Below are positions 1 through 8,996 of a stretch of DNA of 11,779 nucleotides, in pieces (within the stretch, counting starts at the first letter, position 1; each line of letters begins with the position of its first letter). The stretch is from Clostridiales bacterium (GTDB lineage Bacteria > Bacillota > Sulfobacillia > UBA995 > UBA9673), in NCBI GenBank assembly GCA_003541445.1, contig DPMO01000275.1, positions 1-11,779 of the forward strand, written 5' to 3'. Under the pieces are notes generated by a model, which did not search any database, was not told the DNA's origin, and saw only the letters and a program-made list of their open reading frames with translations. Position numbers and translations under genes: made by a program.

Positions 1-620
1 GGGTAAATGTTGCGGCTTAGGTCCAGCTGGCTTTCCCGAAGGGTCACCAGCCCGTCGCCAGGCTGGCGGTTTCCCTTTAAGACCCTCCCTGCCCTGTCGC
101 CAACAGCAGTGCTGGATTGCCACTAAGACCGCACTGTAATCCCCAGCATGCCTCCACGTGAGTGGAACAGCCTAGGAGTTTTCCTCGACAGCGCCGTGCG
201 CTTCTTAGCCTTTTTTGCGGACCTTGGTTTCGGCCGCACTGTAGGTCGGCCTCGTCCAGGGCCCTTGGACCAGACCGATGAAGCGACCGTCCGCCAAAGC
301 CGCTCAAGGCAGGCTACGCTGCACCCAGTTTGAGCCCGAATGCAGGTTCAACCCCAAGCCATAGCCAGCCTTCTCAGCCTCGCCACGCGCTTGGGCCTCC
401 GCGGAGCGAGGGTCCCACCCGCATGCCTTTACGGGCTGCCCCCGCTCCTTAACTCCCAGCACCAACCCCCGACTGGGCGTCGAAGGCCAGCACCAGGAAC
501 TTCATCGATATGCCCTTGGCGGATTTTTAGCCCCGCCCTTAGAAGCGGCGGCGCCGACTAGGATACTGCGCCACCCTCCTCCTAACTTTGTCGGGTGAAC
601 CTGGAAGCGACTGAAAAGCG
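1..620 (-). ncRNA. ole: Probable OLE RNA (large structured noncoding RNA), 3' end at or just beyond window edge
   Basis: No believable protein gene lies here: frames are short, lack a good ribosome site and resemble no known family. A strong promoter (626-654) directs leftward transcription starting near 618-621. The RNA would be highly structured. The 5' and 3' ends can pair (597-608 with 15-24, ten pairs, one G-U, a two-base CC bulge). Further helices are 554-558 with 590-594 stacked on 559-563 with 580-584, 533-537 with 547-551, 403-408 with 443-448 enclosing 418-421 with 432-435, 254-258 with 266-270, 107-112 with 131-136, and 47-52 with 61-66. Known of the family: OLE RNA is about 600 nt, occurs in extremophilic or anaerobic Firmicutes, is often encoded just after ispA in the nusB-folD-xseAB-ispA-dxs cluster, and is brought to the membrane by OapA. 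Size, place, strand and structure all agree. The identification is inferred from context; I could not align it to the consensus. RNase P RNA, tmRNA or a decayed mobile element are less likely. Confidence 0.8.
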
Positions 621-625
621 TCTTC

Positions 626-654
626 ATTATAGCATGGGCCGGAGCGACCATCAA
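626..654 (-). promoter_or_regulatory. Strong sigma-A-type promoter with extended -10, driving the downstream noncoding RNA
   Basis: On the minus strand a -35 box TTGATG (649-654) is followed by exactly 17 bases and a perfect TATAAT -10 box (626-631). A TG one base before the -10 box (633-634) makes it an extended -10. Expected transcription start is about 618-621. The -35 box starts 14 bases past the ispA stop codon, so the promoter sits in the gap between ispA and the structured RNA region and gives the RNA its own transcription, independent of the long upstream operon. Confidence 0.85.
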
Positions 655-668
655 TTTACCCGCCGCAG

Positions 669-1547
669 CTAAAGGCCCATGTCGCGGACGGCTTGGCGGA
701 CCAGGGCCGAGGTCTCGCTCGCACTCCCCAGGCGGCGGTCGACGACCGCAAGGCATCTTGCGACGGCCGCCTCCGCCGTCCGCCGGGCGGCCAGCTCCCC
801 CACGTCCCTGGCGTAGTTGAGGGAAGAGGCGTCCTCGCCGGCGTCGCGCACGTCGTCGGCTATCTGGAAGGCAAGCCCGAAGTCCTCGCCCGCCTCCCTG
901 AACTCCGCCGCCCAGGCCTGCCGGTCGGGAACCAGGAGACACGGCGCCGAGAAGGCGAACCCGAACAGCTTCGCTGTCTTCAGACGATGAACCCGCAGGG
1001 CCGCGTGGTCGTCGCCCGGCAGGCCCAGGGCCGCACCGCCGTCCGGATCGAGGTCGGCGTGCTGGCCGCCGGCCATGCCCGTGCTCCCCGCCGCCCGGGC
1101 CAGTTCGGCGATCAGCGCCCCCCAGATACCATCCCCGGTCTCGGCCGCCCGACCCAGGACCTCGAAAGCAAGGGTCAGAAGGGCGTCCCCGGCCAGCACC
1201 GCGTTCCCGCATCCGTAGGCCCTGTGGACCGACGGCACCCCCCGGCGTTCGGGGGCATCGTCCATGCAGGGGAGGTCGTCGTGAACAAGGGAGTAGTTGT
1301 GGATGAGCTCCAGGGCCGTCGCGGCCGGGAGGACCGCATCCTCGTCGACACCGAGGTCGGCGGCGACCGTGAGGAGGACCACCGGACGGAGGCGCTTGCC
1401 GCCACCGCCGCCGAACACGGCATGCCTCATGGCCTCATGCAGGACGGCCGGCGGCATGTCCCCCGACGGGACGGCGGCCTCCAGCGACGCATTGACCGCG
1501 GCCAGGCGCCTCTCGTAGGCCTGCCGGCCCCCTCGCTCGCTCATCAC
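669..1547 (-). CDS. ispA: Polyprenyl (farnesyl/geranyl) diphosphate synthase
   Basis: Trans-isoprenyl diphosphate synthase, 292 residues, normal length. It condenses isopentenyl diphosphate with allylic diphosphates to make C15 (possibly C20) chains for quinones, carotenoids or undecaprenyl precursors, in the cytoplasm. Visible motifs: GKRLRP (50-55), first aspartate-rich motif DDLPCMD (90-96) of the bacterial type with two extra residues between the aspartates, the KT pair (190-191), and the second aspartate-rich motif DDVRD (231-235). After the first motif the usual run of acidic residues (DDDDLRRG) is replaced by DDAPERRG, a mild deviation that keeps the catalytic aspartates. The start is GTG at 1547 or the adjacent ATG at 1544; both overlap the xseB stop, so translation is probably coupled. 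It is the last protein gene before the structured RNA region. Confidence 0.95.
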   Translation of the reverse strand: MMSERGGRQAYERRLAAVNASLEAAVPSGDMPPAVLHEAMRHAVFGGGGGKRLRPVVLLTVAADLGVDEDAVLPAATALELIHNYSLVHDDLPCMDDAPERRGVPSVHRAYGCGNAVLAGDALLTLAFEVLGRAAETGDGIWGALIAELARAAGSTGMAGGQHADLDPDGGAALGLPGDDHAALRVHRLKTAKLFGFAFSAPCLLVPDRQAWAAEFREAGEDFGLAFQIADDVRDAGEDASSLNYARDVGELAARRTAEAAVARCLAVVDRRLGSASETSALVRQAVRDMGL

Positions 1548-1831
1548 GCGTCGTCTTCCCCCGCATCTCCGGGCTCGAAGGGCCTGAGGACCGTCCCACC
1601 GGCGCCGTCGGCCACGACCTCGTCGATTCTCGCCTGGGCCTCCTCGAGCTTGGCGGTGAGGAGCCGGGAGAGGCGTATCCCTTCCTCGAAGAGCTCGAGG
1701 GCCGTCTCGAGCGGCTCGTCACCCTTCTCCAGCCTCGCCACGACCGCCTCGAGTCTGGCCAGGGCTTCTTCAAAGCTCAGGTCCTCGGCCGGGGCTCCGA
1801 CCGGAACACCGGCACCCTTCGCCTCTGTCAC
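1544..1831 (-). CDS. xseB: Exodeoxyribonuclease VII small subunit
   Basis: 95 residues, slightly longer than the usual 75-85. The core LSFEEALARLEAVVARLEKG (about 18-37) followed by a second helix with LEEGIRLSRL-like spacing (LFEEGIRLSRLL, about 47-58) is the helical hairpin typical of XseB. It binds the large subunit to form exonuclease VII, which degrades single-stranded DNA from both ends into oligonucleotides. The tail after about residue 75 is acidic and nonconserved. Start is GTG at 1831, three bases after the xseA stop; a purine-rich Shine-Dalgarno (GGAGAAGGG) lies inside the last xseA codons. The stop overlaps the ispA start, so xseA, xseB and ispA are a tight translational unit. Confidence 0.95.
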   Translation of the reverse strand: MTEAKGAGVPVGAPAEDLSFEEALARLEAVVARLEKGDEPLETALELFEEGIRLSRLLTAKLEEAQARIDEVVADGAGGTVLRPFEPGDAGEDDA

Positions 1832-1834
1832 GGC

Positions 1835-3052
1835 CTACCCTTCTCCTTCCATGAGGTCTGCCTTGCGCCTCGCGCCGCCGACGGTGCAGTCGATGACGCC
1901 ATCCCTCACCTCGACCTCGACGGCGTCGCCCGGTCGGACGAGAGCCACCGAACCGACCACCTTCCCGTCCGCGGCCCGGCGGCACACCGCGTAGCCTCTG
2001 GCCAGGACGGCGAGAGGACTGAGGGCCTCCAGGCGTCCGGCCAGCGCGTCCCGCCTCATGCGGCAGGCCTCGACCTGCCGCGTGAACGAGAGGAGGGCGT
2101 TGCGGGAGAGGTCGTCGACACGTTGACGGCGCGAGTCGAGGATGCGCGACGGGCGGGCCAGGGCCGAGGAAAGCGAGAGCCGTTCGACGGCCTTCATCCT
2201 CTCGGCGACCAGGGCGCGGAGGGCCCTCTCGAGGCGCCCCGTCAGCACACCCACCTTCCAGGAGAGGTCGGCCTTCCGCGGGACGGCCATCTCGGCGGCA
2301 TTGGAAGGGGTCGCCGCCCGCCTGTCGGCCGCAAGGTCGGCTATGGTCACATCGGTCTCGTGGCCCACGCCGCACACCACAGGGTGGCGGCAGGCCCGGA
2401 TGGCCCGCGCCAGGGCCTCGTCGTTGAAGGCCCAGAGTTCCTCGATGGACCCTCCGCCGCGCGCCAGGATGACGACGTCGATGTCGTCCCTGGCGCTCAG
2501 AAGCTCGAGCGCCCGGATGATGTCCGCCGGGGCGCCGTCACCCTGCACCAGCGCCGGGGAAAGGACCAGGTGGATGTTCGGGTAGCGGCGCCGGGCGACG
2601 GTGACGATGTCCCGCAGGGCGGCTCCCGTGGGGGAGGTCACGATTCCCACCCGCCGGGGGAGCGAAGGGAGCTCACGCTTCAAGGCCTCATCGAAGAGCC
2701 CTTCGTCGGCCAGCTTCCTCTTGAGCTGCTCGAAGGCCAGGTAGAGAGAGCCCATCCCTGCGGGCTCCATCTCCCGGACGTAGAGCTGGTACTGACCGTC
2801 CCGTTCGTAGACACTGACGCGTCCCCCGGCGATGACCTCGAGCCCATTCTCGGGTCTGAAGGCGAGCCTCTGGTTGGCCTTCCTGAACATGACCGCGCGG
2901 ACGGAGGCCGTGGCGTCCTTCAGCGTGAAGTACATGTGCCCCGACGTATGGTGGCGGAAGTTGGAAATCTCTCCCTTGACCCATACGTCGGCCAGGAAGG
3001 GGTCACCGTCGAGGAGCCCCTTCACGTAGGAAGTGAGCTCCCCGACGGTCAT
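1835..3052 (-). CDS. xseA: Exodeoxyribonuclease VII large subunit
   Basis: 405 residues from the chosen ATG, shorter than the roughly 450 of E. coli or B. subtilis; the shortfall appears to be in the C-terminal coiled-coil region. Residues 1-100 form the OB-fold nucleic-acid-binding domain (TVGELTSYVKGLL, WVKGEISNF, GHMYFTLKD). The catalytic domain follows, with VTSPTGAALRDI (138-149), RGGGSIEELWAFNDE (198-212) and VGHETDVTIADLAADRRAATPSNAAE split by the active-site aspartates (229-254). The C-terminal part has heptad-like helices and ends in the conserved LARGYAV segment. It is the catalytic subunit of exonuclease VII with XseB. Start choice is uncertain: the ATG at 3052 fits family alignments, but the nearest strong Shine-Dalgarno (AGGAGG) lies about 28 bases upstream. 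A second in-frame ATG at 3124, preceded by GAAGG, would add 24 residues not typical of the family. Confidence 0.95.
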   Translation of the reverse strand: MTVGELTSYVKGLLDGDPFLADVWVKGEISNFRHHTSGHMYFTLKDATASVRAVMFRKANQRLAFRPENGLEVIAGGRVSVYERDGQYQLYVREMEPAGMGSLYLAFEQLKRKLADEGLFDEALKRELPSLPRRVGIVTSPTGAALRDIVTVARRRYPNIHLVLSPALVQGDGAPADIIRALELLSARDDIDVVILARGGGSIEELWAFNDEALARAIRACRHPVVCGVGHETDVTIADLAADRRAATPSNAAEMAVPRKADLSWKVGVLTGRLERALRALVAERMKAVERLSLSSALARPSRILDSRRQRVDDLSRNALLSFTRQVEACRMRRDALAGRLEALSPLAVLARGYAVCRRAADGKVVGSVALVRPGDAVEVEVRDGVIDCTVGGARRKADLMEGEG

Positions 3053-3135
3053 GATTCGCCTGTCGTGCCTTATCGGCGCCCCTCCTCTCGGCCGGAGCCG
3101 GCCCGGGGCGTCGGACCGGAGCATACCGGAGACCT

Positions 3136-3990
3136 TCAGGCCAGCGTCCTCTCGGCCGCCAGGACGGTGTTCTTCATGAGCATCGTGATGGTCATCGGCC
3201 CGACTCCGCCGGGCACGGGGGTGATGGCTGAGGCCACCTCGAGCGCGGCGTCGAAATCGACGTCCCCGACGAGCTTGCCGCCCTCGATGCGGTTCACCCC
3301 CACGTCGATGACCACCGCGCCGGGCTTGATCATGTCGGCCGTGATCATCCTCGGCCTTCCGACAGCAGCGACCAGGACGTCCGCCCGCCGGCACTCACCC
3401 GCCAGGTCGGTCGTCCGCGAATGGCAGATGGTCACCGTCGCGTGCCTGGAAAGAAGAAGCATGGCCACCGGCTTGCCGACGATGTTGGACCGCCCGACGA
3501 CGGTCGCGTTCTTCCCCTTGAGCTCCACCCCCGTCCGGTCGAGCAGCTCCATGATGCCGTTGGGGGTGCAGGGGATGAAGCATTCCTCACCTATGTGGAG
3601 CCGGCCGATATTCACCGGGTGGAAACCGTCGACATCCTTCTTGGGGTCGATGGCGAAGATGACCTTGTTCTCGTCGATGTGGTCCGGCAGCGGCAACTGC
3701 ACCAGGATGCCGTGGATCTTCGGGTTCTTGTTGAAGTCCTCCACCATCTTGAGGACCTCGGCCTCGGTGGTCGAAGCCGGCACGCGCAGGACCTCGGAGT
3801 AGATGCCCACCTGCCCGGCCGCCTTCTCCTTGCCCTTGACGTAGGAGTGCGAGGCGGGGTCGTCGCCCACCAGGATGACGCCCAGGCCGGGGACGAGCCC
3901 GTGCTTCTCCTTCAACTCGGCCACCCGTTCCGCCAGCTCCTGGCGGATCGAGGCCGAGACTTCCTTTCCGCTGATGATCTTCGCCGTCAT
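3136..3990 (-). CDS. folD: Bifunctional methylenetetrahydrofolate dehydrogenase / methenyltetrahydrofolate cyclohydrolase
   Basis: 284 residues, standard FolD length. It interconverts 5,10-methylene-, 5,10-methenyl- and 10-formyl-tetrahydrofolate, using NADP+ (sometimes NAD+), in the cytoplasm. The catalytic residues fall at the same numbers as in E. coli FolD: Tyr50 and Lys54 in SYVKGKEK, Gln98 in VQLPLP, Asp121 in DVDGFHPVN. The cofactor-binding loop [11 protein letters not shown] and the C-terminal signature [10 protein letters not shown] are intact. The start ATG at 3990 is fixed by a strong GGAGGT six bases upstream. The frame stays open upstream and encodes a hydrophobic, signal-peptide-like stretch beginning with TTG at 4089; I regard that as untranslated leader. 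In acetogens FolD serves the methyl branch of the Wood-Ljungdahl pathway; elsewhere it serves purine and formyl-Met-tRNA synthesis. The window does not tell which applies. Confidence 0.97.
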
Positions 3991-7301: not shown

Positions 7302-7841
7302 CTACTCCACCCGCCCGCGCCGGGCCTCGTTGGATATGTTCTCCACGAAAACCTTGACATCCCCGGCCTCGACGCCCACGACGTTCCTGAGGCAGTCGCG
7401 GACGGCCCTCTGGATGTCGCCGGAGACCTCCGGCACGCTCACGTCAGGGCTGATGACCGTCCTGAGACGTACACTCAGCCTTCCGCCGTCCGCCTGGACC
7501 CAGCCCCGCACCCCTCGGACACCCTTGACCTGGCGGGCCACTTTCCGGACCAGGCTCTCCACGGCCGTGACGGAGATCCTGACCTCCCCGAGCTCACTCT
7601 CGTGGACCAGGGTCTGGTCGACCCCTGACCGGTGGAACCCGTAATAGATGAAGCAGACGGAGATGATGAAGGTGATGCCGGCCAGGATGCCTATGAGCCA
7701 GCGTCCCACGTCATCCTTGAGGCTTGTCCAGAAGACCTCCAAAGGGATGAGCCACCCGGCCGCCAGCATGATGGTGACGGCGGAGATGGCGGCCACGATG
7801 AGGGTCATGACGGTGAGAATGATACGGTCGAAAAGGCCCAT
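7302..7841 (-). CDS. amaP: Alkaline shock response membrane anchor protein AmaP
   Basis: 179 residues. Two membrane helices at the N-terminus (about 7-32 and 48-68) joined by a short loop, then a soluble domain of about 110 residues related to Asp23 (VRISVTAVESLVRKVARQVKGV, then RLRTVISPDVSVPEV and VENI). In Staphylococcus aureus AmaP anchors Asp23 to the membrane. The gene overlaps the asp23 stop by one base (TGATG), the arrangement expected of interacting partners made together. The ATG at 7841 is chosen because it starts the hydrophobic helix with MGLFDRI; the open frame extends further upstream only as an overlap with asp23. Confidence 0.9.
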   Translation of the reverse strand: MGLFDRIILTVMTLIVAAISAVTIMLAAGWLIPLEVFWTSLKDDVGRWLIGILAGITFIISVCFIYYGFHRSGVDQTLVHESELGEVRISVTAVESLVRKVARQVKGVRGVRGWVQADGGRLSVRLRTVISPDVSVPEVSGDIQRAVRDCLRNVVGVEAGDVKVFVENISNEARRGRVE

Positions 7842-8260
7842 CACCTGACGCGAGGTCCCTCCTCCCGGCCTTCCTGGCGGAAAGCGACGCCCTGGATATG
7901 GATGTTGACTTCCACCACGTGGAGGCCTGTCATGCTCTCCACGGCCTGTTTGACGCTCTCCTGCACGCGCTGGGCCACTTCGGGGATGCGGACGCCGTAC
8001 TCGACGACGAGAAACAGGTCGAGAGCGGCCTCGCGGGCGCCCACCTCCACCTTGACCCCTTTGGACAGGTTCTTCCGGCCCAGCATGTCGGTGATGCCCC
8101 CGACGATGCCGCCGCTCATGCCGGCCACACCCTCCACCTCGGTGGCCGCTATCCCGGCGATGGTCCCGACGACGTCGTCGGAGATCCGCACGGCTCCGGC
8201 GTCCTTGTCCTCGTCGTCGCACGGGCCCAAGGTCCGCTCGTCCGACTCGCCCACCCCCAA
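7841..8260 (-). CDS. asp23: Asp23/Gls24 family (YqhY-like) protein
   Basis: 139 residues. After an acidic N-terminal tail (1-22, DDEDKD), the Asp23 fold is clear: VRISDDVVGTIAGIAATEVEGV (24-45), GVKVEVGAREAALDLFLVVEYGVRIPEVAQRVQESVKQAVESMTG split across 68-112, and VVEVNIHIQGVAF (115-127). Proteins of this family are linked to cell-envelope and alkaline stress and, as YqhY in B. subtilis, to acetyl-CoA carboxylase control. Here the next gene is its presumed anchor amaP. The TTG at 8260 is the longest start but has no good ribosome site; the GTG at 8254 is an equal alternative. Confidence 0.92.
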   Translation of the reverse strand: MGVGESDERTLGPCDDEDKDAGAVRISDDVVGTIAGIAATEVEGVAGMSGGIVGGITDMLGRKNLSKGVKVEVGAREAALDLFLVVEYGVRIPEVAQRVQESVKQAVESMTGLHVVEVNIHIQGVAFRQEGREEGPRVR

Positions 8261-8339
8261 GAAGGGCCCCTGCCCGCCCGCGTGCGGGGCCTTGTGGTAC
8301 AGGGTTCTGGTATTCGTCCGGCCCCTTTGATTCCCTGCC

Positions 8340-8996
8340 TCAGCCGCCCCTGGCCACGACCGTGATGTCCTCGTAGGAGAGTCCGGCCACGCGGACGGCG
8401 ATGTCGGCTATCCGCAGGACCTCCTCCCCCGTGAGGGCTTCGGCCTTGACCAGGATCGTGGCCTTCCCCCCGGAGAGCACCACCACCGCGTCCTCGAAGC
8501 CCTTGGCGCGGATGAGGTGCTCGATGTCCGTCTCGAGGCCCACCGTGCGGGTTATCTCGAGCCAGAGAGCCGCAGCCTGCGCCGCGGACGCCTCGTCGAC
8601 GCCCGGCTTGTCCAGGACCTCCCGGAGGAGCTCGAGCTGCAGACTGCGTGCCCGATGGCGTTCGAGACGGAACTCCATGAAAGTATCCCCACCGCCGCCC
8701 AGGAGGCCGGCGAGAGCCTCTCCCTCCTGCCCGCCGGGCGGCAGGAGGGAGAGGGCGGGCAGCGTCTCGTCCGACGCGCCGCCCTCCGGTGAGCCGCCCC
8801 CCGGCGCGATGCCGCCCTCCGTCGCGGGCCTCCCCTCGGCCGGGCCCGCGGTCGCCGCCAGCCCGTCCTCCCCGGACCGGCCGAGAGGCAGGTTCTCAAG
8901 GAGCAGGTCCCGGTTGGCTGCCACGTACCAGGCCGCAAGCGCAACCAGCGCCAAGAAGAAGATGAACCTCAGGATCTCCCTGCCTGAAACGATCAT
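8340..8996 (-). CDS. spoIIIAH: Stage III sporulation protein AH
   Basis: 218 residues. One N-terminal membrane helix (about 9-27), a long Gly/Pro/Ala-rich linker (about 40-103), and a C-terminal YscJ/FliF-like ring-building domain. The family signature is FMEFRLERHRARSLQLELLREVL (106-128), then EITRTVGLETDIEHLIRAKGFEDAVV (147-172), and LTGEEVLRIADIAVRV (188-203). SpoIIIAH in the mother-cell membrane reaches into the space between the two membranes and binds SpoIIQ of the forespore, forming the engulfment channel. ATG at 8996, with AGGAGG ten bases upstream. It is the last spoIIIA gene; a 79-base gap precedes asp23. Confidence 0.93.
   Translation of the reverse strand: MIVSGREILRFIFFLALVALAAWYVAANRDLLLENLPLGRSGEDGLAATAGPAEGRPATEGGIAPGGGSPEGGASDETLPALSLLPPGGQEGEALAGLLGGGGDTFMEFRLERHRARSLQLELLREVLDKPGVDEASAAQAAALWLEITRTVGLETDIEHLIRAKGFEDAVVVLSGGKATILVKAEALTGEEVLRIADIAVRVAGLSYEDITVVARGG

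Follow-up and report, generated by a model that had tools for sequence, protein, structure and literature searches.

An OLE RNA gene from an uncultured, GC-rich member of the Bacillota, with a discordant 3' part

The OLE RNA and its partners OapA, OapB, OapC and bS21 have been described as a membrane ribonucleoprotein that serves cells in coping with stress from cold, alcohol, Mg2+ or the carbon source (PMC11332333, PMC12265935, PMC9723947, PMC12054373; these papers, and PMC12286853 below, are cited from the parts that were available). Near-invariance of approximately 25% of the bases serves as a criterion of the family, as does an oapA neighbor, which mostly lies just downstream; the 5' region forms a homodimer via the kissing loop L9.3 (PMC12286853), a kink-turn for OapC is reported at the flanks of P5 (PMC9723947), and P6 is the reported bS21 site in H. 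halodurans (PMC12054373). OapB and OapC have been reported in approximately 60 and 45% of OLE carriers, in which MpfA-type proteins are said to occur rarely. OLE has been reported from 2,822 Bacillota genomes (PMC11332333); in the OLE variants 1 and 2, which have many conserved bases in common with the rest of the family, P7 and P8 (and P9) are shortened or missing, according to the available part of the same source.

The window, that is the whole stretch of 11,779 nucleotides analyzed here, ends inside such a gene. An initial annotation had proposed a candidate OLE RNA on the minus strand directly after ispA, and the Rfam model bears this out: RF01071 (OLE) matches positions 590..1 of the minus strand with 462.6 bits (E 2.4e-133), against a curated cut-off of 50 bits. 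The match spans model positions 1-587 of 616, its 3' side being cut at the left edge of the window; judged from the 29 missing model positions, the gene would extend for approximately 30 bases beyond base 1. Its GC content is 62%. A scan of the whole window with 4,227 Rfam families at E values up to 1 found no family other than OLE, and none of the three small internal frames (76, 61, and 73 amino acids) is matched by NCBIfam up to the same E limit, in line with the proposed non-coding character of the stretch; on these results, a different RNA family, a protein-coding gene and a transposase remnant were dropped as alternatives and carry next to no probability. We are highly confident that positions 590..1 represent the OLE gene of an uncultured, GC-rich member of the Bacillota, including the mode of action that is proposed below. 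The gene is a further full-length member of a known family and no new kind. The features on which the following comparison draws are listed here, with helix names assigned by position:

1..164, minus strand: 3' part of the OLE RNA, cut by the window edge (RF01071)
165..590, minus strand: 5' part of the OLE RNA (RF01071)
165..189, minus strand: invariant block GTCGAGGAAAACTCCTAGGCTGTTC, just before the switch between the two parts
244..279, minus strand: P9.3 hairpin with the self-complementary loop AGGGCCC
403..448, minus strand: P6 region, from the helix list
453..499, minus strand: P5 hairpin of 20 pairs, from the helix list, with no non-standard pair
626..654, minus strand: promoter-like site TTGATG-17-TATAAT with TG before the -10 box, from a motif search
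669..1547, minus strand: ispA-type polyprenyl synthase gene, adjoining OLE upstream (NCBIfam FPPsyn, E 1.4e-58, below the curated cut-off)
1544..1831, minus strand: xseB (TIGR01280, above cut-off)
1835..3091, minus strand: xseA (TIGR00237, above cut-off)
3136..3990, minus strand: folD (NF010786, NF010785 and others, at or above cut-off)

The structure that had been anticipated for the RNA is also found. When the model structure is projected onto the window, 141 of the 151 resulting pairs are standard, and three of the ten non-standard ones arise through a gap; sliding the 3' partners by one to three places leaves 48-73 standard pairs. The predicted fold energy of positions 1-620 (minus strand) lies 4.68 standard deviations below that of 20 dinucleotide shuffles. 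Conservation was read from an alignment of the window with 108 OLEs from named genomes, 12 of the 120 fetched loci having been left out since they were cut by their stretch; of its 153 near-invariant columns, defined as those conserved in at least 97%, the window keeps 151. The real departure is a change from U to C before GCAAAA at window position 219; a second mismatch, at position 227, was set aside as an alignment shift and no true change. A motif census on the 109 rows left 38 and 35 rows unparsed and was kept out of the evidence.

The full-length OLE RNAs of H. halodurans and C. acetobutylicum (RF01071) resemble the window RNA in length, in conserved blocks and in helices, including full P7, P8, and P9.3, and also in their place between ispA and oapA-dxs, the latter pair being seen in the sister genome introduced below; in contrast, the window RNA is GC-rich, carries the changed near-invariant base, and has a 3' part of another lineage than its 5' part. 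The helices at the places of P7, P8, and P9.3 comprise 17, 13, and 15 pairs in the window, and the P7 and P8 helices rule out an assignment to OLE variant 1 or 2. The P5-flanking bases are kept in the window. The anti-Shine-Dalgarno mimic CCUCC is absent from the 3' arm of P6 in the window (403-412); it occurs in P6 of only 8 of 101 parsed OLEs (of 109, with eight unparsed), and therefore does not discriminate as a sign of bS21 binding. The P6 mimic reported in H. halodurans is thus not general among OLEs.

The loop of P9.3 is self-complementary in 95 of 106 scored OLEs, the window included, the stem being too short in three of the 109. For the remaining apical loops of these RNAs the count is 63 of 1,152, and shuffling of the L9.3 loops yields self-complementarity in 42% of draws; the excess of self-complementarity is large over the other loops and about twofold over the shuffles. 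The loop AGGGCCC of the window fits a dimer of this RNA, without demonstrating one. Across the family, the L9.3 palindromes are mostly GGCC or TGGCCA, with a few GGGCCC, CGGCCG, GAGCTC, GATC, and others. Most of P9.3 is missing in four OLEs (L041 1964-2535, L040 441-1018, L046 2795-3377, and L002 2804-3389), in which the segment measures 20, 19, 12, and 28 bases, respectively, against a median of 58; these RNAs still score 401-481 bits, and if the loop is needed for dimers they would be natural exceptions.

An own promoter had been claimed for the RNA, and TTGATG-17-TATAAT is the only promoter-like site in positions 1-1000 (mean of 50 shuffles, 0.0); the -10 box TATAAT is also found in the related OLE loci L162, L163, and L164. 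Deduced from this -10 box at 631-626, transcription would start near 619-620. Upstream, ten flanking frames were scanned with NCBIfam, one of which has no match and one a weak AmaP match only. The remaining frames are recognized, in order and on the same strand, as ispA-type prenyl synthase, xseB, xseA, folD, a GltA-type protein, an FAD/NAD-binding subunit, and nusB, with spoIIIAE further off. The ispA-type protein has at least 7,992 homologs with PF00348 among the matches listed. Across OLE loci with at least 1,100 bases upstream, an ispA-like gene ends within 1,500 bases of the OLE motif in 77 of 98. In the Symbiobacterium thermophilum MAG, whose OLE (L041/L139) is the next named relative at 78% overall identity, the ispA-like gene lies approximately 3 kb upstream, in contrast to its adjacent position in the window, and most of P9.3 is absent; in L047 the distance is approximately 4.3 kb.

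The window ends before the downstream genes, which are seen in the sister genome G066 (OLE locus L162); its contig is 97.4% identical in DNA sequence to the window over 8,067 bp, including promoter and neighbors, and continues past the window edge. The order of this locus is ispA, OLE (7479-8096), an OapA-like gene (match at 8130-8723, E 7.5e-37 to a Symbiobacterium protein), and two frames that we take to be dxs and tlyA. OLE followed by an OapA-like protein and dxs also occurs in two more distant relatives, L149 (Symbiobacterium thermophilum MAG) and L150 (Bacillota FK3.bin120). The expectation of an OapA-like membrane protein and dxs beyond OLE thus holds for L162, L149, and L150, while the window itself stops inside the RNA gene. 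The OapA-like proteins of L149 and L150 are 41% identical over 158 residues and match Pfam CNNM weakly (E 0.028 and 0.13, below cut-off), which fits the weak kinship of OapA with CNNM proteins given in the available part of PMC11332333. Of the 120 loci, 102 extend 1,500 bases or more past the motif, with an OapA-like frame following OLE in 101 of them. The single exception is L046; an OapA-like match occurs elsewhere in its genome, on a different contig (G158:C6:223982-224491). The sister genome carries, besides its OapA-like gene, a CNNM-domain frame above the Pfam cut-off (G066:C3:51038-51355).

Candidates for the other two partners were also found in G066. A small frame flanked by apparent map and infA genes matches the OLE-associated protein B of PDB entry 7k9b at E 1.2e-7, the next match being an archaeal L14e at E 0.003; this OapB-like frame was located by its place and by the match to 7k9b, and was absent from the matches of a KOW-domain search of G066 at E up to 1. 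The OapC-like candidate is an L7Ae-family frame between rpoC and rpsL that matches the L7Ae-like/YbxF chains 3v7e and 4lck (E 2.1e-17 and 2.7e-17) and reaches 102.3 bits on NF010125, below the cut-off of 113. OapB and OapC, which the initial annotation had proposed to seek in the genome, are thus represented by candidate genes in the sister genome; since G066 has OapA-, OapB-, and OapC-like genes, the species of the window probably has all three.

On the model of the OLE RNAs studied so far, the following mode of action is proposed. Transcription would begin at the RNA's own promoter (654-626), with the upstream operon as a probable second source; a product of approximately 620-650 nucleotides would fold and dimerize through the 5' domain by means of the self-complementary P9.3 loop. 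OapA, encoded just past the left edge, would hold the RNA at the membrane, where OapB, OapC, and probably bS21 may bind and remodel it. The resulting ribonucleoprotein may assist the cell under stresses that include cold, alcohol, Mg2+, and growth on poor carbon sources.

Two further statements of the initial annotation need qualification. OLE RNA had been attributed to a limited set of extremophilic or anaerobic Firmicutes, to be set against the number of Bacillota genomes reported above and against a search of the Symbiobacterium MAG's class, where 100 of 151 genomes carry it, as opposed to 0 of 14 controls; and the value of the window as a high-GC example is lessened by GC-rich OLEs that are already present, L041 having the same GC content as the window. 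Some other loci met in these searches are recorded here. A full OLE gene of 399.8 bits at L156 2986-3650 (NZ_AP023421.1), followed by a CNNM-domain gene and dxs, lies on a 504-kb record that is typed as a conjugative plasmid of Pusillibacter faecalis. An OLE-pattern match (L120, JAGGRA010000014.1) comes from a record titled Pseudomonas sp. ISL-84, a title that may be wrong. The sole match to the OLE pattern in the viral collection (L157 334-356) has no Rfam OLE match and is probably due to chance. Genome G091, with no OapA or L7Ae match, was dropped as a counter-example with ispA but without OLE, because its contig stops approximately 200 bases after ispA.

The two parts of the window RNA differ in their relationships. 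Positions 165-590 are approximately 97.7% identical to the sister locus L162, comparable to the neighboring genes (95-99%), whereas positions 1-164 are only approximately 75-77% identical, with 38 of 164 aligned bases differing. The switch lies at 164/165, directly after the invariant block and 164 bases from the window edge. Clade-typical bases, defined as those common to L162, L163, and L164 but present in fewer than 25% of other OLEs, are found in the window at 32 of 34 positions before the switch and at 2 of 13 after it. An alignment of 193 OLEs (the window, the 108 from named genomes, and 84 more, with at least two loci represented twice) yielded 18,336 pairs, in which the identity difference between 5' and 3' parts averages 0.010 (standard deviation 0.049); the pair of window and L162 is the most discordant of all, with 0.973 vs. 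0.745. The 5' identity reaches at least 0.90 in 53 pairs, two of them duplicates, and the 3' identity falls below 0.85 in this pair alone. The 3' part of L162 is nearest to its own clade (0.914 to L163, 0.875 to L164), that of the window to L135, outside the clade (0.823 in the 193-sequence alignment). In trees of 57 rows, the window groups with L162 for the 5' part (100/89.7), and L162, L163, and L164 form a clade for the 3' part (100/95) with the window outside. As a caveat, AU tests on the 3' part did not reject a placement of the window with L162 (p 0.097, 35.4 log-likelihood units lower) or with the clade (p 0.179, 23.0 log-likelihood units lower). Given this discordance of the 3' part, it may be that no single cell contains the RNA in its printed form. 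Literature searches for OLE with Symbiobacterium and for "chimeric" OLE found no work, and none of the papers listed for OLE with recombination deals with OLE recombination by title; other work may exist in each case.

The last 164 bases appear to be the OLE 3' domain of another lineage, likeliest by way of an assembly join. The OLE of this species would have been joined to that of another species at the invariant block, and the true 3' part would resemble L162, a course of events that we regard as fairly probable. At this block, the window has exact words of up to 31 bases in common with other species (31 bases with L238, 30 with L041 and L132), and words of at least 21 bases are found in 39 of 192 OLEs; assemblies using long words, on the other hand, would not merge there. 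The discordance is unique to the window and L162, and the assembly join is rated above recombination because the switch follows an invariant block so close to the window edge.

Natural recombination is the next likeliest reading, and we entertain it tentatively: a crossover in the invariant block would have brought in the 3' part of another OLE-bearing lineage, perhaps together with oapA and more, and the resulting chimeric RNA would work. It would account for the sharp border, for the loss of clade-typical bases across it, and for the extreme discordance of the pair. The scorable helices of the 3' part contain standard pairs only, although joining two real OLEs would also give these. Between the window and the sister genome, ispA has 45 differences in 879 bases, 29 of them at third codon positions, compared to 20 in 1,544 bases in the adjoining 1548-3091 and approximately 1.3-2% in neighboring genes; this extra divergence makes an exchange near the OLE locus conceivable. 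Against recombination stand the nearness of the switch to the window edge, the absence of a comparable case among the 53 pairs, the AU tests that leave a common 3' part unrejected, and the lack of a close donor in 154 genomes of the class, of which 89 match at all, the best at 82%. Fast divergence of the 3' part in place, under relaxed or positive selection and without exchange, would agree with the AU tests, but is very unlikely in view of 23% change beside 2.3% with an abrupt border, the missing clade-typical bases, the proximity to another lineage, and the retention of near-invariant bases.

As an OLE gene, the window sequence adds little to the thousands of genomes and close relatives already known. 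The sister genome supplies a whole ispA-OLE-oapA-dxs locus together with OapB and OapC candidates, from a GC-rich lineage that is only distantly related to the bacilli studied so far. If the preferred reading, an assembly join, is correct, the discordant 3' part is a warning that OLEs at the edges of records can be chimeric and spoil covariation work; the 3' part of the window should stay out of covariation alignments until the mosaic is resolved. If the 3' part is real, it would be a natural experiment on the exchangeability of OLE domains. With due reserve, OLE might then be considered modular in evolution, a natural crossover in the invariant block having exchanged the entire 3' part, with a functional chimera as the outcome; the 5' domain, with its dimer, OapA, OapC, and bS21 sites, and the 3' domain, with its OapB site, would need no lineage-specific fit.
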